Shown here in pieces: positions 1 to 33,318 of a stretch of 33,600 nucleotides of DNA. The translations under genes and the position numbers were made by a program. Source of the stretch: Elusimicrobia bacterium GWA2_66_18 (GTDB lineage: Bacteria; Elusimicrobiota; Elusimicrobia; UBA1565; UBA9628); assembly GCA_001799675.1 (NCBI GenBank), contig MGTX01000005.1, forward strand, positions 10,472 through 44,071, read 5' to 3'. A model generated the notes under the pieces. The model was not told where the DNA came from and ran no database searches. It worked only from the letters and a program-made list of their open reading frames with translations. Each line of letters opens with the position of its first letter. Within the stretch, counting starts at the first letter, position 1.

Positions 1-1716
1 ATCATCGTCGATCAACACCGCGTCGAATCGCTCCGGAGCTTCCTTTTTCTCTATCCGCATCGGCACGAAGCCGGCCAACGATTTTGGGATGAGCCTGGCT
101 TTGAGCCTCAAGGAATCGGCCAAGACGCCTTTCTCTTCATAGCGGCTCGTCACGAGGATGGTGCGGGCGCCGATGCCGAGTTCCTCGGCGAGACTGAGTC
201 CCGTCTCTCGATAGCCTACGAGTTCGTAGTCCATCAAATAGAGCGGGTCCTTTGCCGTTCGCGGGTCCGTCCGGGTCCAGGAGCGCAGTTCGGCGGGCGT
301 CGAGAAGTGGAGGATCGCGACGCCGTGATCTTTGACGTGCGCCGACTCGAAACGCTCCTGCCAGACCTGATGAATGCTCGAGTCGTCGTCGAGGACGACG
401 ATCGAGGCGCCGGGAGATATGGCCACCTCCGAGACGAACCATTCCGGCGGACGAGCGCGCGGCAGACGGATGGCCACGGTCGTGCCCCTGCCGGGCTCCG
501 AGTCGATCGTGAGGCTCCCTCCCCAGGACTCGACGCTCGTTCTGGCATGGTGCAGGCCGAGCCCGGAGCCTCCCGGCTTGCCGTGCGTCTCGCCTCGCTG
601 CCCAAGCCGCGCAAGCACGTCGGGGGGGATGCCTTGGCCGCTGTCGCGGACCACGATTTCGGTGCCGTCGACGCTTGAAGCGAGCCGAATGGTGACCAAT
701 CCTTTTCCCGGCAGGGACTCCACCGCGTTGTTGATCAAATTCGAGAGCACCCGCTTGAATTCGGACGCCGGGATCGCGGCGAAAAGGCCGTATGAGGACG
801 GATCGAGACGCGAATCGATCTCGACGCCGAGTTGCGACCGGAATTGCAGCCGCTTCTCGGTGATGAGGGAGTCGACGAGGCCCGACAGGAGTTGCACGGA
901 GCCGGACTCGCCCTCAGCCTCATGCGCCTCCGGCTTCGAGCCGCTGCCGACCCTCGCGGCCGTCCGGTTCTTTGCGATCAGGTTGTTGGCGATGTCCCGG
1001 ATGCGCCCGACGGCGCTGCGAATCAAAACTCGTTTTTCTTCCGGTAGCTGCGAGAGGTCATTGAGAACGGAGTCGAGGGCGGCAAGCGGAGAGCGGATGT
1101 CGTGGGCCACCTGTTCCGCGATGCGTCTGACTGCGGATTCCTTTTCGACCTCCAGCTTGAGTATGCGCTGGTACCAGGACGTGATGAACCAGAAGAAGAA
1201 ACCGAATAAGCATGCGACCAGAATGCCGAAGGATGCGGTCAGGCGGTTTTTGAACCGGATCAGCTCTCTGGGGAAATCGGAGCCGATATACAGCGCCGCG
1301 CATTCGGCGCCCGCGGTGCTGCCAGGAAGCGTTGTGATCAGACTGAGGCCTCTTCGGGGATGCCCTGCGATTTTGCGCTGCTCTCCGCACCTGAATTCGG
1401 CAAAGACGGCGTCGGTCCTCTCGTCCGGCCCTGTGGTCCTGAAAACAAAACCGCTGCCATTGGTGTCAGGCAAGCGTCGGATCTCCGCGAATCGCAGATG
1501 CCCATCCTGTTGGAGTTTTGCAAGTGTGGCGCTGAGTTTGAGCAGGTTCCCTTCCGCCAAGTCGCTGGCAAGAGCGGAGACGACCTCCCTTTCCAGCGAC
1601 GCGACCTTGGACTCCTCAGCCGCAGACCACAGCCATGCCATCGCTGCGTAGAAAGGGACGAGAACGAGGCAAGCGCCGATCGCCCACGACGCAATGAGTC
1701 GATGCTTGCTCCACAT
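1..1716 (-). CDS. Hybrid sensor histidine kinase of cassette A, 3' end beyond the window
   Basis: The reading frame starts at ATG 1716 and stays open to the left edge, so the C-terminus is missing. Visible order: membrane helix (about 8-30), periplasmic region (about 31-158, with Cys110 and Cys139), second helix (about 160-180), dimerisation/H-box AEQVAHDIRSPLAAL with phospho-acceptor His205, ATPase domain (N-box LSNLINNAVESL, G-boxes with DSGQGIPP and GGSGLGLHHA), a receiver domain with an Asp triad after residue 440 and a YLMDYEL phospho-Asp segment, then the start of a second receiver (AVLIDDD) at the edge. No HAMP domain is evident. The start lies 3 bases after the stop of the upstream binding-protein gene, with no Shine-Dalgarno of its own, so translational coupling is likely. 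It is a close paralogue of the kinase at 25968-28097 over the kinase and receiver parts, but not in the sensor. Inferred role: sensing the ligand of the adjacent binding protein. Confidence 0.93.
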   Translation of the reverse strand, partial: MWSKHRLIASWAIGACLVLVPFYAAMAWLWSAAEESKVASLEREVVSALASDLAEGNLLKLSATLAKLQQDGHLRFAEIRRLPDTNGSGFVFRTTGPDERTDAVFAEFRCGEQRKIAGHPRRGLSLITTLPGSTAGAECAALYIGSDFPRELIRFKNRLTASFGILVACLFGFFFWFITSWYQRILKLEVEKESAVRRIAEQVAHDIRSPLAALDSVLNDLSQLPEEKRVLIRSAVGRIRDIANNLIAKNRTAARVGSGSKPEAHEAEGESGSVQLLSGLVDSLITEKRLQFRSQLGVEIDSRLDPSSYGLFAAIPASEFKRVLSNLINNAVESLPGKGLVTIRLASSVDGTEIVVRDSGQGIPPDVLARLGQRGETHGKPGGSGLGLHHARTSVESWGGSLTIDSEPGRGTTVAIRLPRARPPEWFVSEVAISPGASIVVLDDDSSIHQVWQERFESAHVKDHGVAILHFSTPAELRSWTRTDPRTAKDPLYLMDYELVGYRETGLSLAEELGIGARTILVTSRYEEKGVLADSLRLKARLIPKSLAGFVPMRIEKKEAPERFDAVLIDDD

Positions 1717-1719
1717 GGC

Positions 1720-3291
1720 TCAGCCGCGAGGTTTCCAGCCCACTGCGCGGAACTCGATCGGGTCCGAGAACAGGTTAAGCCGAGAGAGGTCGATGCCCCG
1801 ACTGTACACATAATTCAGGCCCGAATGCGCGAAAGTGACGATAGAGGCCTCCTCGAAGACGGATGCGTTGATCTTTTCGACGATTCTCTTACGTTTAACC
1901 GGGTCTGATTCTGTCTCAGTTTCTTCGAGGAGTTCCTGGATAGAGCCGGAAGGGTCGGGAATGAGCGCGCCGAGCTTGCTGAGGAACATCATCCGGAGGT
2001 CCGCGTACGGGTCGTTGATCAATATGCCGGTGTACCGCACCATCGCGTCAAAATCTCCGGCCCGCAGTCGTCGTATCGCCTCGGATCTGTCAGAGTATCT
2101 GGAGACATGAGGCTGAAGCCCGTGGGCTTCCAGACTGTCTACTACGGCGGTTTCTATCGCCTCCTGAATCCTGCGGTCTCGGGGGAATGGATATCTGGCA
2201 AGAGGGTAGAAAAGGACCTCGACCTTGCCTCGGCGAGATTTCCCGGGTCGCGGCTTGGGTGGAACGGCCAGGGGGAGGTATCCGATGCCGCCCTTTGGAA
2301 TGAAGGATGGGTTGACGTCCGTCTGAGACGTAAAGCTCGGATTGGCGTTCAGGGAACTCAAGAAGGCATCCCGGATGGACTGCCGAAGCCCCTTGTCTTT
2401 CAGCGGGGACCTATGGGCATTGAGTTGCATGAAGTACATGTTCGTGGACGGGCCGTCGAGTATCTGGAGGTCATGGTTGCGGAGTTCGCCCATCGTTTCC
2501 TTGCTGAGGGCGAAGCGTGGCTCGAGCGTGAGGTCTCCCTGGCCGCTCAGTAACGCCGCGAGGACGTTATCTTCGGCGCCAGAGGGCGCGTGTATCTCGA
2601 CGATCTCCGGAGCATGGTCGGCTTCAGGGAACACGTGTCTCGACTCCAGGACGATCTTATCCTTGGCAAGCTCCCGAATTTTGTACTGGCCGGATGCCGA
2701 AGCGCAAAGGGGCTCCTTCCACCGGCCTTTTTCATCGAAGCACTTCGGATTAGCTATTCCATAGACAGACTGGCTGATGGTCTCGAATAGATTGACCGGG
2801 CGTTTGTTGAACTTGAAGACGATCGCGTCTTTCTCCGCGAAAAGGCACTTGAGGGGGGCCTCATATTTCTTCCAGCGTTTGACTTCGGGCAGCAGGGAAT
2901 TGAGAATCAGCCCTTCGTCGCGCGTCAACCAAAGGATGCGCCTGAAATTCTTCAAGACGATGTCGGGGGTGATGGGAGTCCCGTCATCGAAGGAGAGATC
3001 GGGCCTCATCCGGAAGCGCCAGGTCTTCCCGCTCCCGTCTACCTGCCAGTCCGAGGCGACCATCCCTTGGGGCTTGCCGTCCATGTAGATGGAGACGAGG
3101 GGAGCGTAGATGTTTTTGGCAATCTGCATGACGTCGAACATGTCCGCTTTATAGGTGTCGAACGTCGTGGCTGGCCACCAATACCAGTACCGTAAAGGCG
3201 ATTTCTGCATGCTCTTTTCTCCGTTGCATCCGCCCGCCAATATGGCGCCTATGACTAAAACGCCATGCAGGAGACGCGGATATTGAGGCAC
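1720..3291 (-). CDS. Oligopeptide-type solute-binding lipoprotein (SBP_bac_5 family), cassette A
   Basis: A 523-residue protein starting at GTG 3291. The N-terminus has a hydrophobic stretch ending in lipobox LAGGC with Cys22, so it should be a lipid-anchored periplasmic protein. Family hallmarks: an early segment on the expected overall fold (WQVDGSGKTWRFRMRPDLSF, then DDGTPITPDIV), a mid-protein region with YFMQLNAHRSPLKDKGLRQS, and a C-terminal partial-charge region matching DppA/OppA-type ligand receptors. No permease or ATPase genes accompany it, which argues for a sensing rather than an import role. It follows the YcaO gene with one base between stop and start and precedes the kinase by 3 bases, so the three are almost certainly one transcript. 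No Shine-Dalgarno is visible before the GTG; a later start would lose the signal peptide. Ligand unknown; a modified peptide is an inference. Confidence 0.88.
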   Translation of the reverse strand: MPQYPRLLHGVLVIGAILAGGCNGEKSMQKSPLRYWYWWPATTFDTYKADMFDVMQIAKNIYAPLVSIYMDGKPQGMVASDWQVDGSGKTWRFRMRPDLSFDDGTPITPDIVLKNFRRILWLTRDEGLILNSLLPEVKRWKKYEAPLKCLFAEKDAIVFKFNKRPVNLFETISQSVYGIANPKCFDEKGRWKEPLCASASGQYKIRELAKDKIVLESRHVFPEADHAPEIVEIHAPSGAEDNVLAALLSGQGDLTLEPRFALSKETMGELRNHDLQILDGPSTNMYFMQLNAHRSPLKDKGLRQSIRDAFLSSLNANPSFTSQTDVNPSFIPKGGIGYLPLAVPPKPRPGKSRRGKVEVLFYPLARYPFPRDRRIQEAIETAVVDSLEAHGLQPHVSRYSDRSEAIRRLRAGDFDAMVRYTGILINDPYADLRMMFLSKLGALIPDPSGSIQELLEETETESDPVKRKRIVEKINASVFEEASIVTFAHSGLNYVYSRGIDLSRLNLFSDPIEFRAVGWKPRG

Positions 3292-3292
3292 T

Positions 3293-4243
3293 TTAAATTA
3301 AAAAACGCTCGAGGGCGGCGTCATTGGCCGCCCTGGAGTCTCCGGATATCATCACGCGGTGCACCAAGACCTCTGGATTCCAGGGTCCGTCGAGTCGCTT
3401 GGAGAATGCGATGTCAGGCGGGTTGATGGGCCCGGGGGAAGCCGTCTCTTGGATGCGTTCCTTGACCATCGCGTACCCGCGAGTTTGGTTGCCAAAAAAA
3501 CATAACCGCTTCTCAATCATGTTCTCAAAGGATTCCACGTTGCAGTCTTTCATCCGGGCAAAGGCCCGGACATGGACATACGCCTCCAGCATGGCTCTCT
3601 CAAGCGCGATTTGGGAGTGCGCGCCGCACGCCGAGCCGGGGATGGCTCCTCCTGTCGGTGTTTCAAAGACGCAGAGGCAGAATACGAGTTGCGTGGCGAG
3701 AGTCTGGTTGGACCGGTCCAGTTTCACGATTGCCTCAAAACAATGGAGTTGCCCAGGAAAACGGGCAAACAGCTTGAGCACCTGGTCGTTGTGCGGTCTG
3801 ACTCGTCGGAAGGCTATATCGCCATGGTCCCACAGTCGGCTAAGGCCCCAGCGCTCCAGCGCTTCGCAATAGGCGTGGATGAAGAGTCGCTCCTCGCCTA
3901 AGGTTGCCGGGAGGGCCGCGAAACCGTCTGTCGTGGGATTGACGTCCAAGTCGGCTTCGGCGGGAGAGTGTTTGGAGCAGTAGCGGAAGGCCCAGCGCTC
4001 AACGGCTTCCGTGACGGCTTTGCACTGGCTTTCTTCTTTATCCGAACTCCAGCCGGCACCGCATGGCCGCAGGACGTGGAAGGGCACGGGCTGGGCCTCC
4101 CATTGGGGGTGAAGTCTTGCTGTGGAGTACCAGAGCCATCTTCTCCAGAAGTTCGGATGCGGGGAGGAGATGAGGGAGACAATGGGCCCTGCCTCCTGGT
4201 CGATGAACCGCAGGAGGGTGGGGACTTCGGTTGATTCAGACAT
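3293..4243 (-). CDS. YcaO-domain protein (putative peptide backbone-modifying enzyme)
   Basis: A 316-residue protein. It carries the three spaced acidic helices expected of YcaO ATP-binding folds: KAVTEAVERWAF (Glu79, Glu82) after a Gly-rich GAGWSS segment, CEALERWGLSRLW (Glu127, Glu130), and a Gly-rich GSACGAHSQ segment followed by ALERAMLEAYVHVRAF (Glu215, Glu220). YcaO enzymes use ATP to phosphorylate peptide amide oxygens, making azolines, thioamides or amidines in RiPPs, or act on the ribosomal protein S12 or methyl-CoM reductase. The PxPxP C-terminus of azoline-forming members is absent (the protein ends FLI), and no fused E1-like or recognition domain is seen, so chemistry and partner are unknown. 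The protein is shorter than typical (about 400). It leads the kinase/binding-protein operon, and the gene has a possible leaderless start (see the promoter entry). Family call from motifs only; the substrate is inference. Confidence 0.82.
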   Translation of the reverse strand: MSESTEVPTLLRFIDQEAGPIVSLISSPHPNFWRRWLWYSTARLHPQWEAQPVPFHVLRPCGAGWSSDKEESQCKAVTEAVERWAFRYCSKHSPAEADLDVNPTTDGFAALPATLGEERLFIHAYCEALERWGLSRLWDHGDIAFRRVRPHNDQVLKLFARFPGQLHCFEAIVKLDRSNQTLATQLVFCLCVFETPTGGAIPGSACGAHSQIALERAMLEAYVHVRAFARMKDCNVESFENMIEKRLCFFGNQTRGYAMVKERIQETASPGPINPPDIAFSKRLDGPWNPEVLVHRVMISGDSRAANDAALERFLI

Positions 4244-4285: not shown

Positions 4286-4429
4286 ATGAAACTCAAGAAG
4301 TTATTGCTCGCGGTCGCCTATATGCTCGTTGGGGTCGTCTTCGCAAAGGAAGCAACCGCTTTCGATCGGGCTGGAGTCACAGGAATTACGTCAGCCGAAG
4401 GGGCAGACGCTGGCTCGAACGGGATTTAG
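4286..4429 (+). CDS. 47-residue secreted small peptide, candidate precursor for the YcaO enzyme
   Basis: Too short for most gene finders, but supported by a strong promoter (4231-4260) and a Shine-Dalgarno GAGGAG at ideal spacing. The N-terminus is a textbook Sec signal: MKLKK, then a hydrophobic core of about 15 residues (LLLAVAYMLVGVVFA), then a possible signal-peptidase site after ATA (residues 23-25). The remaining 22 residues begin FDRAGVTGITSAEG and end SNGI; they are Gly/Ala/Ser/Thr-rich with no Cys. The gene is divergent from the YcaO gene, with 42 bases between the start codons. Family unknown. It could be a peptide pheromone or RiPP substrate read by the linked binding protein and kinase. 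One difficulty is that Sec-exported peptides would have to be modified before export. No gene follows on this strand, and the neighbouring gene at 4476 is convergent. Confidence 0.6.
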   Translation: MKLKKLLLAVAYMLVGVVFAKEATAFDRAGVTGITSAEGADAGSNGI

Positions 4430-25200: not shown

Positions 25201-25286
25201 TGGTGGTAGGGACAGGATTCGAACCTGTGTAGGCTATTGCCGCCGGTTTTACAGACCGGTGCTTTTGACCGCTCAGCCACCCTACC
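25201..25286 (-). tRNA. tRNA-Tyr (anticodon GTA), CCA encoded
   Basis: Read on the minus strand: acceptor GGTAGGG (25286-25280) pairs with CCCTACC, followed by A and an encoded CCA. The anticodon stem ACCGGT/ACCGGC carries the loop CTGTAAA with GTA as anticodon. A long variable arm (type II) precedes the T-arm with GGTTCGAATCC, as expected for bacterial tRNA-Tyr. The terminator at 25165-25192 lies directly downstream. Confidence 0.97.
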
Positions 25287-25967: not shown

Positions 25968-28097
25968 TCAGCCCCAGGGAGGTTCTTTGCCGACCACCCC
26001 GCGCAGATGCTTGTAAGCGGCGAACTTCGCCGCTTCGTGTCCCGTCGCCAGGTATATCTCTTGGAAGCCTAATTCGTGAATCCTGAGAGATTCCTGGGCG
26101 CCGTTCACGTCGTCCGCCAGCTTGGCATCGACATAGACGGGAGTCTCCAGGCTAATGGCGGGAGCTTCGTTAAGGAACTCCACCACCGTCGAGAAAGACT
26201 TGAACTTCTTGTCTGACCGTGAGGCCGCCATTTTCCAGTTCATCCGCGTCAGAGGATCGTCGTCAATCAGTACCGCGTCAAGAAGCATGTTCTTCCCGAC
26301 CGGCCCCGGCTCGCTCGCGCCGGTTGGCGTCTGGACCCGGATGGGGACGAAGCTGGCCAGACCTTTGGGAATCATGCGGGCTTTGAGCCTCAAGCACTCT
26401 TCAAGGATCGCCTTCTCTTCAAAGCGGCTTGTGACCAGAATTGCCCGCGCTCCGAGTCCCAACTCTGCGATCAGCGCCAGGCCAGTGTCCTTGTGGCCTA
26501 ATAACTCATAGTCCATCAAGTAAACGGCACCTTGCGCCAGCGCCGTGTCGGCCTTCACCCAGTCGCGTAGTTCGGCGGGCGTCGAGAAGTGCAGCACCTC
26601 AAGGGGCTGGACCGTCGGGCGCAAGGAGTCGAAGCGCCCCTGCCAGACCTGGTGGATGCTCGTGTCGTCATCGAGCACGACCACGGGTCGCTGAGCGTCA
26701 AGTTCCAGAACGGAGATGAACCACTCCGGCGGGCGAGCTTTTGGAAGGCGCACGACTGCGGTCGTCCCCCGGCCCACTACGGACTGAAGCTCCAGGGAGC
26801 CGCCCCAGGACTCGACGGTGGTGCGGGCGTGGTAGAGGCCGAGGCCCGAGCCGCCCGCCTTGCCGTGGGTCTCGCCCCGTTTGCCGAGCTTTGCCAGTAT
26901 CTTGGGAGGGATACCCGGGCCGTCGTCCTTGACCGTGATGATGATGGACTCGCCAGCCGCCGCGGCGAGGGTCAGGGTCACGCTGCCCGACGCCCCCAAC
27001 GCTTCGACGCTGTTGTTGACCAAGTTGGAGAGGAGCCGCTTAAACTCGCGGGGTTGGACGCGGGCGAACAGGCCATAGGCGGAGGCGTCTAGGCGGGCGT
27101 CGATCTCGACGCCGAGCTTGGAGCGGAACGAAAGGCGCTTCTCCGTGACGAGGGGCTCGATGAGGCTGGAGAGAAGCTCGACGGAGGGGGCCGCGTCTTG
27201 TGCAGCGGTCTCTGCGGCGGAATCCTTGCCGTCAGTGCGATTCTTCTCGAGGAGGTTGTTGGCGATGTCTCGGATGCGGTTAATCGAGCTGCGCGTGATC
27301 ATCCGCTCTTCTTCCGGCAATACACGAAGGTGGTTCAGAAGGGATTCCAGCGCGGCCAATGGGGAGCGGATGTCATGCGCCACCTGCGCGGCCAACTGGG
27401 CGACTGCCTCGCGTTGCGCTCCCGCTACCAACTCTTTCTGATATTCGACGATGCGTGCCGCGAGGACCTTCATACTTTCCTGCAATGTCCCGACCTCTTG
27501 TATCGCCGTGCGAGGTCCGTCGCTGCGAAGGATGGCCCCAACGTCTCCCGACGCCAGAAGTCGGGAGATGTCGGAGATCGGCGCCGATACGTTGGCGCTG
27601 ATGACACGCGCAACGATAAAGTGGATTACCCCCAGAACGAAGATCGCCATGGCGAGCAGAAGCCCATACTTCAGCTTCGCGGCACCAAGAAGCGAGGTTG
27701 AGTATCGGACGCGCAGAACGGACGCCTTCTCTTTGCCCGACTCATCGAAGTAGATCGGCGATTCGATCAGCACTCCTTCCCGCCGAGAGGATTCCCACGG
27801 CCCGCAGAGCGGGTGGCCATTCAGGTCCAGGAGTTCGATCGACTCCACGGGCTGCGTGGTCTTGTACAGTTGGCACCGACCGTAGACTGCGGCATTCGCG
27901 CCCATCAGGAGATCCTGGGAGATCGTGTCAACGAACAGCTTCTGCGAGGAATGCAGGTGTTCCCCGAAAGATGTCTGGATCGCGCTGAAGATGATGTTGC
28001 CGGCCAGGAGCGCGAAGCTTAGAAGGATGAGCATCCCCGGGATGAGGCTCCGCAGGAAAATGACGCGGGAGAGAGGCCGGGCTCGTCCTTGCACCAT
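25968..28097 (-). CDS. Hybrid sensor histidine kinase with two receiver domains, cassette B
   Basis: A 709-residue membrane kinase. Helix 1 (about 13-40), periplasmic sensor (about 41-142, with Cys75 and Cys98), helix 2 (about 143-165), HAMP-like linker (about 166-220), dimerisation domain with phospho-acceptor His241 (AQVAHDIRSPLAAL), ATPase domain with N-box LLSNLVNNSVEAL, G1 DDGPGIPP and G2 GGSGLGLYHA, receiver 1 (about 471-582, acidic DDD 477-479, phospho-Asp529 in YLMDYEL, Lys578), receiver 2 (about 607-706, DDD 612-614, Asp657 in YVDAKL, and a VGKEPPW end). No DNA-binding or other output domain follows. The start at ATG 28097 overlaps the upstream stop (TGATG); the ATG eight codons earlier would overlap more. 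Close paralogue of the kinase at 1-1716. Confidence 0.94.
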   Translation of the reverse strand: MVQGRARPLSRVIFLRSLIPGMLILLSFALLAGNIIFSAIQTSFGEHLHSSQKLFVDTISQDLLMGANAAVYGRCQLYKTTQPVESIELLDLNGHPLCGPWESSRREGVLIESPIYFDESGKEKASVLRVRYSTSLLGAAKLKYGLLLAMAIFVLGVIHFIVARVISANVSAPISDISRLLASGDVGAILRSDGPRTAIQEVGTLQESMKVLAARIVEYQKELVAGAQREAVAQLAAQVAHDIRSPLAALESLLNHLRVLPEEERMITRSSINRIRDIANNLLEKNRTDGKDSAAETAAQDAAPSVELLSSLIEPLVTEKRLSFRSKLGVEIDARLDASAYGLFARVQPREFKRLLSNLVNNSVEALGASGSVTLTLAAAAGESIIITVKDDGPGIPPKILAKLGKRGETHGKAGGSGLGLYHARTTVESWGGSLELQSVVGRGTTAVVRLPKARPPEWFISVLELDAQRPVVVLDDDTSIHQVWQGRFDSLRPTVQPLEVLHFSTPAELRDWVKADTALAQGAVYLMDYELLGHKDTGLALIAELGLGARAILVTSRFEEKAILEECLRLKARMIPKGLASFVPIRVQTPTGASEPGPVGKNMLLDAVLIDDDPLTRMNWKMAASRSDKKFKSFSTVVEFLNEAPAISLETPVYVDAKLADDVNGAQESLRIHELGFQEIYLATGHEAAKFAAYKHLRGVVGKEPPWG

Positions 28098-29653
28098 CAG
28101 GGCGCCTCCGGGGCTTCCCAATAAATCCCGCGCAACTCCGCCTCGAACCGATAGTTCGTGTCAGGAATGTGCAGGCCCGGGGCGCACAACATCGGCAGAC
28201 CGACGTTGAAGAGGGGAATCACATACCACTCATCTTCGAACGTGCGAAGAGCCTTCGCGTAAAGGTCCAAACGCGCTTTAGAGTGCGTCCCTGCCGGAAT
28301 CCGCCGCAGGGCCTCCAAGAGATCACGACTCGGCTTGAAATCTGCCGGGAACAGCCTGCCCGGGTGAAGATAATCCATGAAGCCGTCTGGATCCGGGAAG
28401 TTGCTCATGTAGGGAATCGAAATCAGGTCATAGTCGCGCGAATCCAGCATGGGATGGAAGTTCTGCGGCGTCAAGGCTTCAAGAGCGACCTCCAGCCCTG
28501 CGCGCGCAAAGGCGCCTCTGAGTTCGGCAAGAGCTTCGCGCGAGAAATATGTCTCTCGCAGCATGATGCGAAGCTTCCGGTCTCCTGCGCCATGATGCCA
28601 CTTCTGGGCAAATGCCTCGGCGGTCGTCTCCGGGAACGTCCGTTCGTAATACCCGCGCGGCATGATGCCCATTGGGATGAAATACGGCGTGAACTCCTGC
28701 GAGGCGACACGAAACCGTCGCTGCTTAAAAATCGAATAGATGAGACCGGCGAGGCCGCGGCGGAATTCCCGGTCCTGCAGCAGGGGATTCCGGGGAAGCA
28801 GGAACAGATGAATGAAGACCAGGCTTTTCGTCTGGATCAGCCGCACGCGCCCCGTCGGCGGCGTCGAAAATGCGTCGACGGGAGGAACTCCCATTGCCAT
28901 ATCCGTCTCGCCTGAGGCGACCGCGCTGACCATATGGGGAAAATCAGCATCCTGGCGGACCATGAAACCCTGCATTTTTGCGGCGCCATCGTGATAGCGT
29001 GGGTTTCGCTCGAGACGCCATCCCTTCTCCTGCGCGAGGTGGTGGTGCACCATAGCGCCGGATCCGATCATGCGCCCATCAACTGCCGCCGCCCGCGAAA
29101 GCACCGAATAGCCGGGCATCGTCAGAACCGACAAAAAGGAGGCGTAGGGCGCTTTCAGTTTAAAACTGACGACCCGCTCTCCCTCGACGCGAATGCCCGA
29201 TGGGGTTGCCCCCTGCGGCAAATCCGCGGCACCTTCCAGAATGTCTTTGAGCTGGGACGCCACGGCCGACTTGGACCCCGGCCAGAAGTGGCGAGCGAAG
29301 CTGTACGCGACGTCCTTCGCGACGACCTTTGTGCCATCGTGGAAAAGAGCCTCCGGTTTCAACTCGAAGCGATAGAGCGTCCCGTCCTGCTCGACGTTCC
29401 ACCTCTTCGCCAGCGAGCCGACGAGCCTCCCGGCGTCGTTGAAGCGGACAAGGGTATCGAACACCGTTTGAAGAAGAAGGAAATGCTGGAAGTTGCTCGC
29501 GGCCACGGGATCGAGCGTCTCCGGGAGTTGCGAGACGGTGATGTTCACCTCAGACTTCCGCTTGCGCTCAACGACGCCGGTACGCTCTTCGGCGTGAACG
29601 AGCCCGAGCATTTGCGTCACCAACGCCAGCCAAATCAGCGCGCGCATGCCCAT
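28097..29653 (-). CDS. Oligopeptide-type solute-binding protein (SBP_bac_5), cassette B
   Basis: A 518-residue exported protein. The chosen start ATG 29653 (or 29647, two codons later) gives a clean Sec signal, RALIWLALVTQMLGLVHA, cut before EERTG; it is not a lipoprotein. The mature part begins VNITVSQLPETLDPVAASNF, the classic opening of DppA/OppA-type receptors, and continues with DGTLYRFELKPEALFHDGTK and VVAKDVAYSFARHF. Longer in-frame starts upstream lie within the dehydratase gene and would bury the signal. It overlaps the dehydratase 3' end by about 19 bases and is coupled to the kinase by TGATG. No permease or ATPase is present, so a receptor role for the kinase is more likely than uptake. 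It differs clearly in sequence from the cassette A binding protein. Confidence 0.9.
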   Translation of the reverse strand: MGMRALIWLALVTQMLGLVHAEERTGVVERKRKSEVNITVSQLPETLDPVAASNFQHFLLLQTVFDTLVRFNDAGRLVGSLAKRWNVEQDGTLYRFELKPEALFHDGTKVVAKDVAYSFARHFWPGSKSAVASQLKDILEGAADLPQGATPSGIRVEGERVVSFKLKAPYASFLSVLTMPGYSVLSRAAAVDGRMIGSGAMVHHHLAQEKGWRLERNPRYHDGAAKMQGFMVRQDADFPHMVSAVASGETDMAMGVPPVDAFSTPPTGRVRLIQTKSLVFIHLFLLPRNPLLQDREFRRGLAGLIYSIFKQRRFRVASQEFTPYFIPMGIMPRGYYERTFPETTAEAFAQKWHHGAGDRKLRIMLRETYFSREALAELRGAFARAGLEVALEALTPQNFHPMLDSRDYDLISIPYMSNFPDPDGFMDYLHPGRLFPADFKPSRDLLEALRRIPAGTHSKARLDLYAKALRTFEDEWYVIPLFNVGLPMLCAPGLHIPDTNYRFEAELRGIYWEAPEAP

Positions 29654-30762
29654 CGGTGGCGCTGATCCTCTCCCCAGGAGACCGCGATGTGTTGATCGGT
29701 GACGGATAGGGATGCGCCAGCGTAAGACGCCTCCCCGCGCCCCACCCCCGACAACATCCGCGCGATCTGTAAGGTGCCCGCTCCCAGGAGGGTCTCTCGA
29801 TGCCTCCACGCTATACGCCCATCGGCCCCAAGCTCTCTTATGATCTCTAGCGCCGGGAACTCCGAGGGATCCGGTGAAACGGGAGCCGAGGCGCCCGTCC
29901 AATCTCGCGAGTTCTTTTCGAGCCAGCGCTGCTCAAGTGACGCGGCCTCGCGGAAGAAATACGGCACATCGCCGCGCGAGAGTTGAGACATCTCGCTTGG
30001 GAGGAGCCCCGGTCGCAGTGTGTCTGGAAGAATGACGCTATCGAGGACGGAGCGGTACGCCGCGGTGTCCCTCAGAATGACGCGAATGGGCCACCCCAGG
30101 ATTCCGGGCTCCGCGATAAGCGTCGATGAGACCGAATGCTCATGCCGGGTCAACGCCAGCATCACACCGATGTATCCGTGCAATGTGGCTGCGACGAAGC
30201 CGGCTGGGCGTCCCGCCTCATCGAGAAGCTCCTGGAATCCGGCAAGCCCGCAGCGCCGACCTGCTTCATCAGGATATCCGATCAATCTGGACTGTGCTGG
30301 CAGCTTGTAGTCAAAGAACAGACATTCGATGTCAACGGGAGCACATACTGGCCGGCCATCGCCGAGCGTGCCGAAGGCGATGTTTTGTCGATGCATGTCG
30401 CCCATGCCGAACCATGAGACCAGCCCGATGACCGCGCCGATTCGAGCGCAGGCCGACTCCGTGAGCAATAAGGCTCCGGGGCTCCACGCAAGTTGATCCA
30501 CGTCCCCCGAGAAAACCATCTCGGCCCCGCGCCTGAATGATAATGTTGGGAAGAGTTCAAACGGGTCTGGAACGTTGTCTGCTCGGAATATCCTGCTGAG
30601 TTCTGCCCTCAGGGAACTGTCGCCAAGGAATAGCCGCTCCCACTCGACACATCGAGGCTTTTCGATTCTTCCCGTCGGTCCGAGGGCTACGCGCCGACCG
30701 AAGTTGTGGGGGTCACCCGTCGGGGTCTGCGGTAATGGACCGTCAAATAATCGACGGGGCAT
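29635..30762 (-). CDS. Stand-alone LanM-type lanthipeptide dehydratase core (DUF4135)
   Basis: A 375-residue protein matching the kinase-like core of class II lanthipeptide synthetases, which phosphorylate and then dehydrate Ser/Thr. Catalytic positions known from CylM all have counterparts: GDPHN (Asp17, His19), IEKPR (Lys35, Arg37), GMGDMHRQN (Asp122, His124, Asn127), PVDIE (Asp144, Glu146), and Arg227...Thr233 in IRVILRDTAAY for phosphate elimination. GDVPYF (264-269) is another family block. Missing are the N-terminal part of normal LanM and the whole LanC-like cyclase with its zinc site: 375 residues instead of about 1000. The start at ATG 30762 follows GGAGGT at ideal spacing. It lies 60 bases after the 25-residue peptide gene. 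Family call is firm; activity and substrate are inference. Confidence 0.88.
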   Translation of the reverse strand: MPRRLFDGPLPQTPTGDPHNFGRRVALGPTGRIEKPRCVEWERLFLGDSSLRAELSRIFRADNVPDPFELFPTLSFRRGAEMVFSGDVDQLAWSPGALLLTESACARIGAVIGLVSWFGMGDMHRQNIAFGTLGDGRPVCAPVDIECLFFDYKLPAQSRLIGYPDEAGRRCGLAGFQELLDEAGRPAGFVAATLHGYIGVMLALTRHEHSVSSTLIAEPGILGWPIRVILRDTAAYRSVLDSVILPDTLRPGLLPSEMSQLSRGDVPYFFREAASLEQRWLEKNSRDWTGASAPVSPDPSEFPALEIIRELGADGRIAWRHRETLLGAGTLQIARMLSGVGRGEASYAGASLSVTDQHIAVSWGEDQRHRWACAR

Positions 30763-30822
30763 CGCACCTCCAGCCTCGAAACGGCAACGGGCGATACCCC
30801 GCAAGAGACAGCAGACGACGAC

Positions 30823-30900
30823 TCACATCGTGTCGGTCGTGAACAGAACGTCAGAACCTGCTTCCACGTCGCTCAAGTCGATCCACTGAAAGTCAGACAT
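30823..30900 (-). CDS. 25-residue peptide gene upstream of the dehydratase, candidate precursor
   Basis: ATG 30900 is preceded by AAGGGGGG (30912-30905), a strong ribosome-binding site at 4-base spacing. The peptide begins MSDFQWIDLSDVEAGSD and ends VLFTTDTM. The acidic first part with DLSDVEAG recalls class II leader ends (LSxxELxxVxGG), and the last ten residues hold Ser/Thr acceptors but no Cys, consistent with a dehydratase that has no cyclase partner. It could equally be a translational leader peptide. The gene lies 10 bases after the 43-codon ORF and 60 before the dehydratase. Confidence 0.5.
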   Translation of the reverse strand: MSDFQWIDLSDVEAGSDVLFTTDTM

Positions 30901-31053: not shown

Positions 31054-31401
31054 TCAGAAGAACCATACCCGTGAGATCAGGCCGTCCTTGACCTCATAGA
31101 TCGCCAGCGCATCGCGTGCGCCCTCGGCGGCCAGCCCCGTGATCTTCTCGGAGATTGCGACGAAATCTCCTTTGACGATGCGTGCGTCGACAGCGCAATG
31201 TAGAGCGGAATTGGCAGCGAAGAGCTTCGCGAAGCCCTCGCGTATCGCCCTACGGCCACGCGCGACCACGACCCCTTGTGAAGGGCGCTCGATGACGGCA
31301 TCCTCGTGGTAGGTCGAGAGGAAACCTTCGAGGTTCCGCGCGTTATAGAACTCCCCCTGCCGCATCACCACGGCTTCTGGACCTATCGCGGCATCGCTCA
31401 T
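31054..31401 (-). CDS. SnoaL/ketosteroid-isomerase-like (NTF2-fold) protein
   Basis: A 115-residue protein with the cone-shaped NTF2-fold pattern: an N-terminal helix ending FYNARNLEGFLSTYHEDAVI, ERPSQGVVVARGRRAIREGF, and a C-terminal strand pair AIYEVKDGLISRVWFF. Members include isomerases, hydrolases and small-molecule binding proteins; nothing here fixes the reaction. The start at 31401 overlaps the SDR stop (ATGA). It is third in the run of minus-strand genes leading into the peptide ORFs. A longer start at 31467 would lie inside the SDR gene. Confidence 0.82.
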   Translation of the reverse strand: MSDAAIGPEAVVMRQGEFYNARNLEGFLSTYHEDAVIERPSQGVVVARGRRAIREGFAKLFAANSALHCAVDARIVKGDFVAISEKITGLAAEGARDALAIYEVKDGLISRVWFF

Positions 31402-32132
31402 CGGTTGACCGTGCCTTCCGGCGGTTGGAGTTCGGCCAGCATCCCGTCCGCCGTCACGCAGTAGCATCGGCCTGCGCAGGACATGCCAGCAGTGACCAGC
31501 GCGACGAATTGCGGCCCAAGGGCGTCCGGGGACTTAAGCGTCGTCGGGTCCTCGCCGGGAGCCCACGCGGCGCGCATGCGCGTGCGGACCATCCCGGGAT
31601 TGAAGGAACAGACGCCGATGCCGGAGTCCTTGAGTTCTTTGGCGGCGACCTGGGTGAGGCCCTCCAGCGCGAACTTACTCACGGTATAGGCACCGCCCCT
31701 GGCGAAGCCGACGCGCCCGACCCCGGAACTCATATTGATGATGATGCCTGCGCGCCGTTTCAGCATGGAGAACTCGAGCGCGGCCTGGGTCGCATGAAAG
31801 ACTCCCTGGATGTTGACGTCGAGCACGCGCGCGAAGTCGGCCGCTGGGAACTCCGCCAACGTGACTCGGGGGCCGAGCACGGCGGCGTTGTTGACTAGGA
31901 TGTCGAGACGGCCGAAGCGCCGAACAGCCGCGCGTTCCGTGACGTCGCAGCACCGCGCCAGCACGCGCGCGCCCTGCGCCTCTGCCTCATGCGCAACGGC
32001 GTTGATCTCTGGACCGCGGGCGCAGAGGACGAGGTCAGCCCCCGCCCGGGCGAATGCCAGAGCCGCCGCCCGCCCGACGCCGAGGCTTGCGCCCGTCACG
32101 GCCGCAACGCAACCGGCGAGCGGCTTATCCAC
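31398..32132 (-). CDS. Short-chain dehydrogenase/reductase
   Basis: A 244-residue classical SDR. The cofactor loop is VTGASLGVGRAAA (about 13-25), the NNAA motif is at ILVNNAAVLGPR, and the catalytic residues are Ser in INMSSGVGR and Tyr-Lys in GGAYTVSKFALEG; the substrate loop PGMVRTRM follows. The GTG start at 32132 is preferred: it has GGGAGGT five bases upstream and overlaps the MFS stop by eight bases. The ATG at 32162 would add ten residues before the first strand and has no ribosome-binding site. The Arg in ARG after the second strand suggests NADPH. Substrate unknown. Confidence 0.9.
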   Translation of the reverse strand: MDKPLAGCVAAVTGASLGVGRAAALAFARAGADLVLCARGPEINAVAHEAEAQGARVLARCCDVTERAAVRRFGRLDILVNNAAVLGPRVTLAEFPAADFARVLDVNIQGVFHATQAALEFSMLKRRAGIIINMSSGVGRVGFARGGAYTVSKFALEGLTQVAAKELKDSGIGVCSFNPGMVRTRMRAAWAPGEDPTTLKSPDALGPQFVALVTAGMSCAGRCYCVTADGMLAELQPPEGTVNR

Positions 32133-33318
32133 GGCAGACCTCCCGCTCGGCCCCACGTTCATGGATTAGCAGAAGATAAGTGAGCGCGGCGATTAGAGCG
32201 GTTCCCAAGCGTATGGCCAACTCGCCGCCGAGAGTCCAGTGCGGATAGAGCACCTCGCCGACAGCGAGAATCAGGCTGGTGAGCATCTGTCTGTTCGCGA
32301 AGGTCGGCCCGATGTTGGCTTGCGAGGTAACGCGAAACCAAATGGTCTCGAGGGTCAGGAGGAAAATCGGGTAGGCAAGGAACATGATGAAAAAGGCCGC
32401 CGCATGCCACGCAGTCGCCAGTCCTGCCCAGGAGAGAATCGCCAAGCAAGTCAGCATCGTCCAGGGTGCCAACGGCTCCGAGCGTCGCAGAATCATCCCG
32501 AGCAAGCCTCCTCGCGCCTGAACGAGGAAACCTCCCAGAAGAAAAGCCGTTGCATAGACAACCAGGGAAAGACCGTAGCCTCCCGCGGAGCGGAACAGAC
32601 CGTCTCCAGCCCGGACAAGAAATATATTCGTGCCGCCCATCGCGACGGCCAGACTGAGGTCGCCCACGAGTAGAGGCAGGTTCTTGCGCGTGAACAGGAA
32701 GCCGAAGGCCATCACATCGGCTGAAGGCTTGGCGACGACTTCCACGCCGAAGTCGCGCATGCTCATGAAAAGGGGGATGGCGAATGCCGAAGTGGCTGCG
32801 TCCAGCAGGACGAGCGCCAGGGCCAGAGGCTGGGCGACGCCGAGTAGGAGAAGAACGCCGATGAGACCGTAGGAGGATTGGATGATAACCCGCGTGATGA
32901 TCAGCACCCGTCTGCCGATCTCCTGGTCAGGCAGCGCCTTCAGCCAGGCCACGCGCACGTTCGGGATGAACCCCGTCGAGAGTCCGCGTACGGCGATGGC
33001 AGCCGCTACCAGGAACGCGTTCGAGTGAAGGACGGCCCCGTATAGGACGAGGCAACACGTGAGGTTCAGGGCCTCGGCCGCGGCCGACGCGGCGTGCGGG
33101 GAGGAGCGCCTCAGCACCCAGGGCCCGGCCATCCCGCCGATAATCGCGCCGAGGCGGGAGAGGAAATAGAGCGTCCCTAGAAGCGCCGCGGATAAGCCCG
33201 CGCGCTGGAGGAGATACGGCAGGTTCCCCTGAACCAGAACGACCGCAACGGTCGAGACCGCAACCTGCACGGTGAAGCGGTTGAATAGGACGCTCTTCGG
33301 AATTCGGAAGCTTGTCAT
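32125..33318 (-). CDS. MFS-type transporter
   Basis: A 397-residue protein with about ten to twelve membrane helices. The N-terminal half has a loop with LSRLGAIIGGMAGPWVLRRS resembling the MFS motif A region, and the central cytoplasmic loop is short. No motif specifies the substrate; export of a small molecule or peptide is possible given its neighbours. The gene overlaps the SDR start and is first in a minus-strand run that continues to the cassette B kinase. A candidate promoter lies at 33381-33408. Confidence 0.85.
   Translation of the reverse strand: MTSFRIPKSVLFNRFTVQVAVSTVAVVLVQGNLPYLLQRAGLSAALLGTLYFLSRLGAIIGGMAGPWVLRRSSPHAASAAAEALNLTCCLVLYGAVLHSNAFLVAAAIAVRGLSTGFIPNVRVAWLKALPDQEIGRRVLIITRVIIQSSYGLIGVLLLLGVAQPLALALVLLDAATSAFAIPLFMSMRDFGVEVVAKPSADVMAFGFLFTRKNLPLLVGDLSLAVAMGGTNIFLVRAGDGLFRSAGGYGLSLVVYATAFLLGGFLVQARGGLLGMILRRSEPLAPWTMLTCLAILSWAGLATAWHAAAFFIMFLAYPIFLLTLETIWFRVTSQANIGPTFANRQMLTSLILAVGEVLYPHWTLGGELAIRLGTALIAALTYLLLIHERGAEREVCRG

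Follow-up and report, generated by a model that had tools for sequence, protein, structure and literature searches.

Gene cassette with a stand-alone DUF4135 dehydratase core, a 25-residue candidate precursor and a binding-protein-linked histidine kinase in an Elusimicrobia genome: a proposed modular system for peptide signalling

The window analysed in this work was a 33,600-nucleotide stretch of the genome of Elusimicrobia bacterium GWA2_66_18 (contig 5, positions 10472–44071; genome of 2.79 Mb in 34 contigs, 94.7% complete). Two cassettes of this window, A and B, combine a histidine kinase and a periplasmic binding protein with an enzyme of a type found with ribosomally synthesized and post-translationally modified peptides (RiPPs). 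It was concluded that cassette B is probably a self-contained system by which a small modified peptide is made, exported and sensed, and in which the modifying chemistry can be exchanged.

Cassette B lay on the minus strand of the window, to which all coordinates without a contig or locus name refer, and comprised, in downstream order, a 25-amino-acid open reading frame (ORF), a DUF4135 protein, an SBP_bac_5 protein and a histidine kinase. The ORF (MSDFQWIDLSDVEAGSDVLFTTDTM; 30823–30900), the proposed precursor peptide, was preceded by a strong Shine–Dalgarno sequence, AAGGGGGGTCAC, before its ATG and encoded a leader motif, WIDLSDVEA, and a Ser/Thr-containing tail without Cys. The DUF4135 protein (29635–30762; ORF 29635–30804, likely start 30762) was a stand-alone LanM-type dehydratase core. 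It was followed by a periplasmic oligopeptide-type binding protein, the proposed peptide receptor (28097–29653; PF00496, 130.8 bits, or 131.4 bits with a trimmed start), and by the kinase (25968–28097). With the starts set by the gene caller of this analysis, the three larger genes overlapped successively by a few bases. The GC content of the cassette was 61%, versus 68% between the cassettes. The sequence-only reading had described a binding protein and a kinase with a LanM-type core where cassette A has a YcaO enzyme, and Pfam matches to DUF4135, SBP_bac_5, HATPase_c and YcaO bore this out; the 25-residue ORF and two more YcaO-like cassettes of the same genome (C and L057) were found in addition.

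The enzyme belonged to the DUF4135 family (PF13575, 40.1 bits at a cut-off of 29) and scored 29.1 bits against the NCBIfam LanM model, whose cut-off is 304. Counterparts were found for nine catalytic residues of CylM, those of the kinase and elimination steps, the roles of which are given in the available text of PMC4550811. Residues D347, H349, N352, D364, R506 and T512 of CylM corresponded to D122, H124, N127, D144, R227 and T233 in a direct alignment, weak in its second stretch, and D252, H254 and K274 corresponded to D17, H19 and K35, placed by motif through an alignment with LicM2. CylM was also the best structural match of the predicted model, as given by a second-look aligner, and the model points to a lipid-kinase-like dehydratase fold. 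The likeness to the class II LanM enzymes (CylM, 5dzt; LicM2, 6st5) thus lay in the dehydratase domain family, the nine residues and the modelled fold. However, the cassette B enzyme had 375 residues versus 993 in CylM and 979 in LicM2, stopped after the dehydratase core without a LanC cyclase domain, and was paired with a 25-residue precursor free of Cys; no LANC_like match was found anywhere in the 94.7% complete genome. Hence, of the "lanthipeptide dehydratase core" named in the sequence-only reading, the dehydratase core stood and the lanthipeptide chemistry was not supported. With LanC missing and the peptide free of Cys, dehydration without lanthionine formation is predicted for the product.

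According to the accessible part of PMC10676384, DUF4135 enzymes also dehydrate without forming lanthionine rings in the dehydrazoles (CcaM, LanMbC), the clusters of which place DUF4135 beside YcaO and a long nitrile-hydratase-like leader. Cassette B held no YcaO and a precursor of 25 residues, and did not fall into that class. The survey in the same source is described there as limited to DUF4135 proteins with 500 residues or more, which leaves the short form outside it. Among other DUF4135 loci, L190 (6174–10388), from another genome of the order to which the window belongs, carried a DUF4135 protein of 570 residues; its neighbours were three small signal-peptide-like ORFs and a protein resembling the B12 radical SAM protein of L061, and no family kinase or binding protein was labelled on its 11-kb contig. 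In L186 (1127–3682) an 851-residue protein with the appearance of a transporter–binding protein fusion stood between DUF4135 and the kinase. The DUF4135 cassettes of L185 and L187, both from one Bdellovibrionaceae metagenome-assembled genome (MAG), had in common a flanking set of small genes plus one large ORF, by eye similar to a conjugative element.

The candidate precursors were compared between loci. The motif [IVL][DN]Lxx[ILV][EQ] was present in an upstream small ORF at eight of the nine short-DUF4135 loci of a first set, seven times with a Shine–Dalgarno sequence, versus one of 1154 control genes and none with a Shine–Dalgarno sequence. Six of these peptides had 25–31 residues, and none of the six, the window peptide included, contained Cys, which does not fit a lanthipeptide product; two were longer and had signal-peptide-like N-termini by eye. 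The first count is not independent, since the strict motif was written after the first eight peptides had been seen. A second set of 26 further loci was therefore scored by a test fixed beforehand (DUF4135 starts assigned by a scripted rule), in which the motif was predicted at most loci and fewer than a quarter would have weakened the proposal. The strict motif was found at 8 of the 26, all of them among the 19 loci with a kinase or binding protein nearby and none among the seven without (controls, 1/1152), so that the weakening threshold was not crossed; both partners were nearby at 16 of the 26. A relaxed motif, defined post hoc, was recorded at 15/19, 2/7 and 18/1152, respectively, and rescued 7 of the 11 strict failures beside a kinase or binding protein (for example, FDLDSLE and INLDELI). 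Other enzyme classes also had small signal-peptide-like ORFs of their own, which formed groups with the YcaO of type C (L006, L102, L114), a first radical SAM type (L073, L080, L169, L092) and a second one (L107, L116 and L074, the kinase of which had no upstream gene).

Further, the neighbours of homologous kinases were surveyed. The input was 121 candidates, reduced to 104 distinct kinases, mostly from Elusimicrobia and Bdellovibrio-like MAGs; a scan of named genomes by kinase alignment confirmed at least 124 relatives, of which 80 were kept, and the kinase totals are lower bounds. The family was recorded in 18 of 58 genomes, the present one counted, when searched with the receiver region, and a genome-collection scan with the single cassette B DUF4135 protein as the query returned no relative. 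Neighbours were labelled with profiles grown locally from these loci, and three binding proteins and one ATP-grasp protein were entered by hand from Pfam results; the labels MFSg (mostly sigma-54 activators), CUPIN5 and HPT (both drifted) were kept out of the counts. Of the 104 kinases, 82 had a gene on the same strand no more than 300 bp upstream, 12 started at a contig edge and 10 were alone or divergent. A binding protein stood within four genes in 61 of the 82 (45 adjacent, 14 second, 2 third), labelled SBP5 in 48 cases, BP6 in 10 and NMT1, ABC_sub_bind and SBP_bac_3 in one each. RiPP-type enzymes were found in 33 (13 YcaO, 11 radical SAM, 2 B12 radical SAM, 4 DUF4135, 2 ATP-grasp and 1 RimK-type ATP-grasp, the last identified separately from the Pfam scan below). 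Both partners were present in 31 of the 82, a binding protein only in 30 (11 of these cut by a contig edge) and neither in 19. An independent Pfam scan recognized 28 of 32 enzymes (12 radical SAM, 10 YcaO, 4 DUF4135, 2 ATP-grasp) and, among 64 binding-protein sequences including fragments, 37 SBP_bac_5, 9 Peripla_BP_6, 2 ABC_sub_bind, 1 NMT1 and 1 SBP_bac_3. Repeated RiPP-enzyme families, which the sequence-only reading had named as support for modularity, were observed in this tabulation. Its refuting case, that most homologues lack these partners and the pairing is a coincidence, did not hold for the binding protein; a RiPP-type enzyme was seen beside a minority of the 82. As a control, 23 other kinase-like proteins on 20 stretches of the own genome, which has further kinases, were searched with a profile set lacking the single-member RSAM2 profile, and neither label was seen, 14 of the 23 having an upstream gene.

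Two side observations were made on these loci. A protein family of about 100–130 residues (YPYCTMYGVNI...) recurred next to the kinases, in many cases encoded on the other strand (L006:411–803, L062:2606–2911, L063:9021–9173, L080:7285–7578 and others); one member was scanned and had no Pfam match. Loci L143, L144 and L147 are titled Streptomyces griseus (isolate HRS-HS12-bin-158), and the cores of their family kinases grouped with Bacteriovorax and Bdellovibrionales; the title looks wrong.

The same survey bears on the possibility that such systems make and sense small metabolites in general, with modified peptides as only one subset, and that the DUF4135 substrate is not a peptide. Methyltransferases, acyltransferases, an amidotransferase (GATase), M29 and M3 peptidases, HAD and SDR proteins and adenosine deaminase were recorded in other enzyme slots, and the Peripla_BP_6, NMT1, SBP_bac_3 and ABC_sub_bind families among the binding proteins, as such systems would have it. 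For DUF4135, however, the linked small ORF with its common leader points to a peptide, and for the other slots this explanation is compatible with the system proposed here; as an alternative to it we consider it unlikely.

The kinase of cassette B consisted of an N-terminal half (27390–28097; residues 1–236) with two transmembrane (TM)-like segments by hydropathy and a sensor region, and a core (25968–27389) with HisKA, HATPase_c, two receiver-like domains and a C-terminal GKEPPW. The H-box, AHDIR, was conserved, HATPase_c scored 79.5 bits, over its cut-off, and HisKA 24.2 bits at a cut-off of 26.9, which identifies a HisKA/HATPase_c kinase. The two C-terminal receivers were tentatively assigned from conserved D, D, T and K positions in a 24-row alignment; no Pfam receiver match was obtained, and a PDB sequence search with the receiver region gave no receiver, the best hit being an unrelated kinase (E 0.0098). 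The kinases of A and B had been called nearly identical in the ATPase G2 region and first receiver, which was an overstatement: they were 54% identical over 437 residues, with 78% in the 40-residue window holding the G2 box and 45–65% in those of the first receiver. The binding proteins of the two cassettes were only remotely alike (29% over 79 residues).

The cassette B core was most closely related to that of an Elusimicrobia kinase whose slot is occupied by a peptidase (83% identity); by 40-residue windows the two kinases were 18–32% identical before about residue 240, at the H-box, and 75–95% after it. The binding protein was closest to those beside DUF4135 in L135, L163 and L152 (37, 32 and 29%), and the N-terminal half of the kinase best matched the kinases of these same DUF4135 cassettes; the cassettes nearest in both parts came from Bdellovibrionales, Bacteriovorax and Oligoflexia MAGs. 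In the 32 cassettes for which both an enzyme label and a binding protein were available, the best match elsewhere shared the enzyme class in 27 cases by binding protein, 27 by N-terminal half and 12 by core, against shuffled means of 7.7–7.8; the first two values were reached in 0 of 1000 shuffles and the core value in 78. With matches restricted to cores less than 50% identical, the counts were 24/32, 23/30 and 12/32. The enzyme class therefore predicts the binding protein and the sensor half, and the core weakly if at all. Enzyme class changed 16 times on the core tree (minimum 5; shuffled mean 17.0; 62 of 200 shuffles gave no more changes) versus 7 times on the binding-protein tree. Because the number on the core tree resembles the shuffles when that on the binding-protein tree does not reach it, exchangeability of the enzymes on the kinase core is supported, and so is the modular system with exchangeable modification suggested by the sequence-only reading. 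At the level of sequence, enzyme, binding protein and sensor are inherited together and the enzyme is swapped repeatedly relative to the core.

These results also speak to another explanation, nutrient or environment sensing, by which the binding protein would report external oligopeptides, with the small ORF and the enzyme of RiPP type as unrelated passengers. SBP_bac_5 proteins normally bind nutrients, and binding-protein-dependent kinases such as LuxP/LuxQ and TorT/TorS are known. However, the enzyme class predicts the binding protein and sensor half even between distant kinases, the enzyme gene overlaps the binding-protein gene, none of the 23 sampled control kinases had such neighbours, and no ABC permease or ATPase was found beside the cassette among the scanned window proteins. 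We regard this explanation as highly improbable.

The own genome contained six copies of the kinase family (430–1053 bits; the next kinase, 62). Cassette A, also on the minus strand, comprised a kinase of which the N-terminal 572 residues lay within the window (1–1716, the remainder to its left), an SBP_bac_5 protein (1720–3291; PF00496, 87.5 bits), a YcaO-type enzyme (3293–4243; PF02624, 34 bits, over the cut-off) and, divergent from the YcaO gene on the plus strand, a candidate precursor of 47 residues with a signal-peptide-like N-terminus (4286–4429), shortly before the ATG of which stood TGAGGAGAG. The fourth cassette, L057, had a binding protein and an enzyme 48% identical to the YcaO of cassette A, which was not picked up as YcaO in the whole-genome Pfam search; its divergent 44-residue ORF was positioned as in cassette A and the two shared FDRAG, a pair of two cases only. 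Cassette C, on contig 32, held a binding protein, a YcaO just under the Pfam cut-off and a kinase, and upstream of them a multi-TM gene, two small ORFs and a gene resembling spermidine synthase with a score just below the cut-off. The remaining family kinases, L058:7291–9117 and L059:6500–8203, had no binding protein upstream, and the H-box pattern was not found in them; the former followed a cupin gene and the latter a carboxymuconolactone decarboxylase gene.

Upstream of cassette B, on the same strand, lay an MFS-like membrane protein with ten TM-like segments (32125–33318; PF07690, 17.7 bits), a possible exporter, a short-chain dehydrogenase overlapping it (31398–32162; PF00106, 159 bits) and a SnoaL-like protein overlapping the dehydrogenase gene (31054–31467; PF12680, 58 bits); the membership of the last two in the cassette is uncertain. 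Pfam scanning of the cassette B proteins and these three revealed no ABC permease or ATPase, and so no oligopeptide ABC importer. Sigma-70-like promoters in the region numbered 0 versus 1.6 expected. A tRNA-Tyr gene (25201–25286, minus strand) lay just past the 3' end of the cassette, a possible insertion site; integration there was considered and rejected, as two repeat families were found and neither flanked the cassette. Anti-phage defence was likewise rejected: PADLOC gave no match for the enzyme, the binding proteins or YcaO, and for the kinase only LeoBC (E 0.0027).

Transporter-like genes upstream in cassettes B and C would suit a RiPP antibiotic or bacteriocin cluster, in which the peptide is a weapon or chelator sensed by the binding protein and kinase for self-regulation or immunity; many characterized RiPPs are antimicrobial, and nisin-type peptides both kill and induce. 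The window peptide is, however, short and Cys-free with no ring-forming LanC at hand, no immunity gene was recognized among the ten window proteins scanned, PADLOC was silent on the enzyme and binding proteins, and four RiPP-type cassettes with related cores in one genome fit signalling better than four weapons. An antibiotic function was accordingly given a low probability.

On the output side, a sigma-54 activator, a 67-residue HisKA-like protein and a divergent second sigma-54 gene stood in a row near cassette C (contig 32, 10550–13135; L193:2051–4636), the families being named on homologues with HisKA below its cut-off there; another sigma-54 gene was located at contig 32, 144264. The kinases may act through this trio, a link that we infer.

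We proposed the following sequence of events, in which the chemistry, the signal and its output are read from gene content. The miniature DUF4135 enzyme would recognize the leader [IVL][DN]Lxx[ILV]E of the 25-residue peptide, phosphorylate Ser/Thr residues of its tail and eliminate the phosphate to give dehydroamino acids; since LanC and Cys are both missing, no thioether rings would form in the product. The modified peptide would then be exported, perhaps via the MFS-like protein, and become the periplasmic ligand of the SBP_bac_5 protein; the sensor half of the kinase would read the resulting complex. The core would pass phosphate through its receivers in a presumed relay, probably to the HisKA-like protein and the sigma-54 activator paired with a second sigma-54, all encoded near cassette C, by which the target genes would be reached and signalling completed. 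Enzyme, precursor, binding protein and sensor half would together form an input module plugged onto a lineage-specific kinase core, and therefore unrelated chemistries (DUF4135, YcaO, radical SAM, ATP-grasp) would be met in the same slot.

Several observations weigh against this proposal. The prediction that most second-set loci carry the strict motif failed (8/26), one of those eight peptides (L243) repeats that of L185, and some longer second-set peptides contain Cys (L252, L254, L259, L260). No binding protein was recognized beside 21 of the 82 kinases and no RiPP-type enzyme beside 49, and several slot enzymes need not act on peptides. On the core tree, which has four long branches, the DUF4135 label taken by itself showed some clustering (5 changes versus a shuffled mean of 7.2; 12 of 500 shuffles were as low). 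Nor is the core uniform throughout, since the kinase of L163 could not be matched in the region of the second receiver. The MFS-like match was under its Pfam cut-off (33.4), and the transporter-like gene of cassette C had no Pfam match. A sigma-54 gene lay within 8 kb of 14 of the 104 kinases, the small HisKA-like protein near 11 and both near 6, and sigma-54-like promoters were not enriched upstream of 60 family operons (mean 10.75) relative to 262 controls (10.71). MAGs accounted for 79 of the 80 named loci of the kinase scan.

Beyond cassette B, we lean, by a modest degree, towards a broader reading: Elusimicrobia and Bdellovibrio-like bacteria would share a large mobile family of RiPP-pheromone systems. 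Its exchangeable input modules, each made up of precursor, enzyme, binding protein and sensor half, would have been joined to a conserved core by recombination at the H-box; a phosphorelay would lead to a dedicated second sigma-54, several channels would run in parallel in one cell, and stand-alone DUF4135 enzymes acting on 25-residue peptides would make a new minimal RiPP class.

In the open-access literature, which leaves subscription papers and most preprints outside coverage, no description of the exchangeable architecture or of the miniature enzyme was recognized. A survey of Bacteroidales describes one RiPP cluster with a kinase and a response regulator, and the available text mentions no binding protein (PMC10352776). 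What sets the present family apart is that peptide chemistries unrelated to one another would all feed into one kinase scaffold; each would come with a precursor and a binding protein of its own, and a single genome can contain several. If this is true, the family could be mined for new peptide signals and enzymes, among them a minimal dehydratase acting on a 25-residue substrate. It would also be a natural case of kinases whose sensors are swapped at a defined joint, and would give a first way into the study of communication in Bdellovibrio relatives and uncultured Elusimicrobia.

To our knowledge, signalling by modified peptides is familiar from Gram-positive bacteria, whereas few descriptions exist for Gram-negative ones. 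The principle, peptide autoinduction through a two-component system and a binding-protein-dependent kinase, has precedents by analogy. Gram-positive nisin producers respond to their own modified peptide through the histidine kinase NisK and a separate response regulator, NisR, with one chemistry and no binding protein; the likeness lies in the self-made modified peptide and the histidine kinase, whereas here a periplasmic binding protein, a putative hybrid-type kinase and interchangeable enzymes are found. LuxP/LuxQ and TorT/TorS place a periplasmic binding protein beside a hybrid kinase for small-molecule ligands; the present cassettes differ in their binding-protein families and in the dedicated RiPP enzyme and precursor within the operon. 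The streptococcal RaS-RiPPs are radical-SAM RiPPs tied to peptide quorum sensing and controlled by the cytoplasmic Rgg/SHP system, the place of which is taken in the cassettes described here by a binding protein and a kinase.

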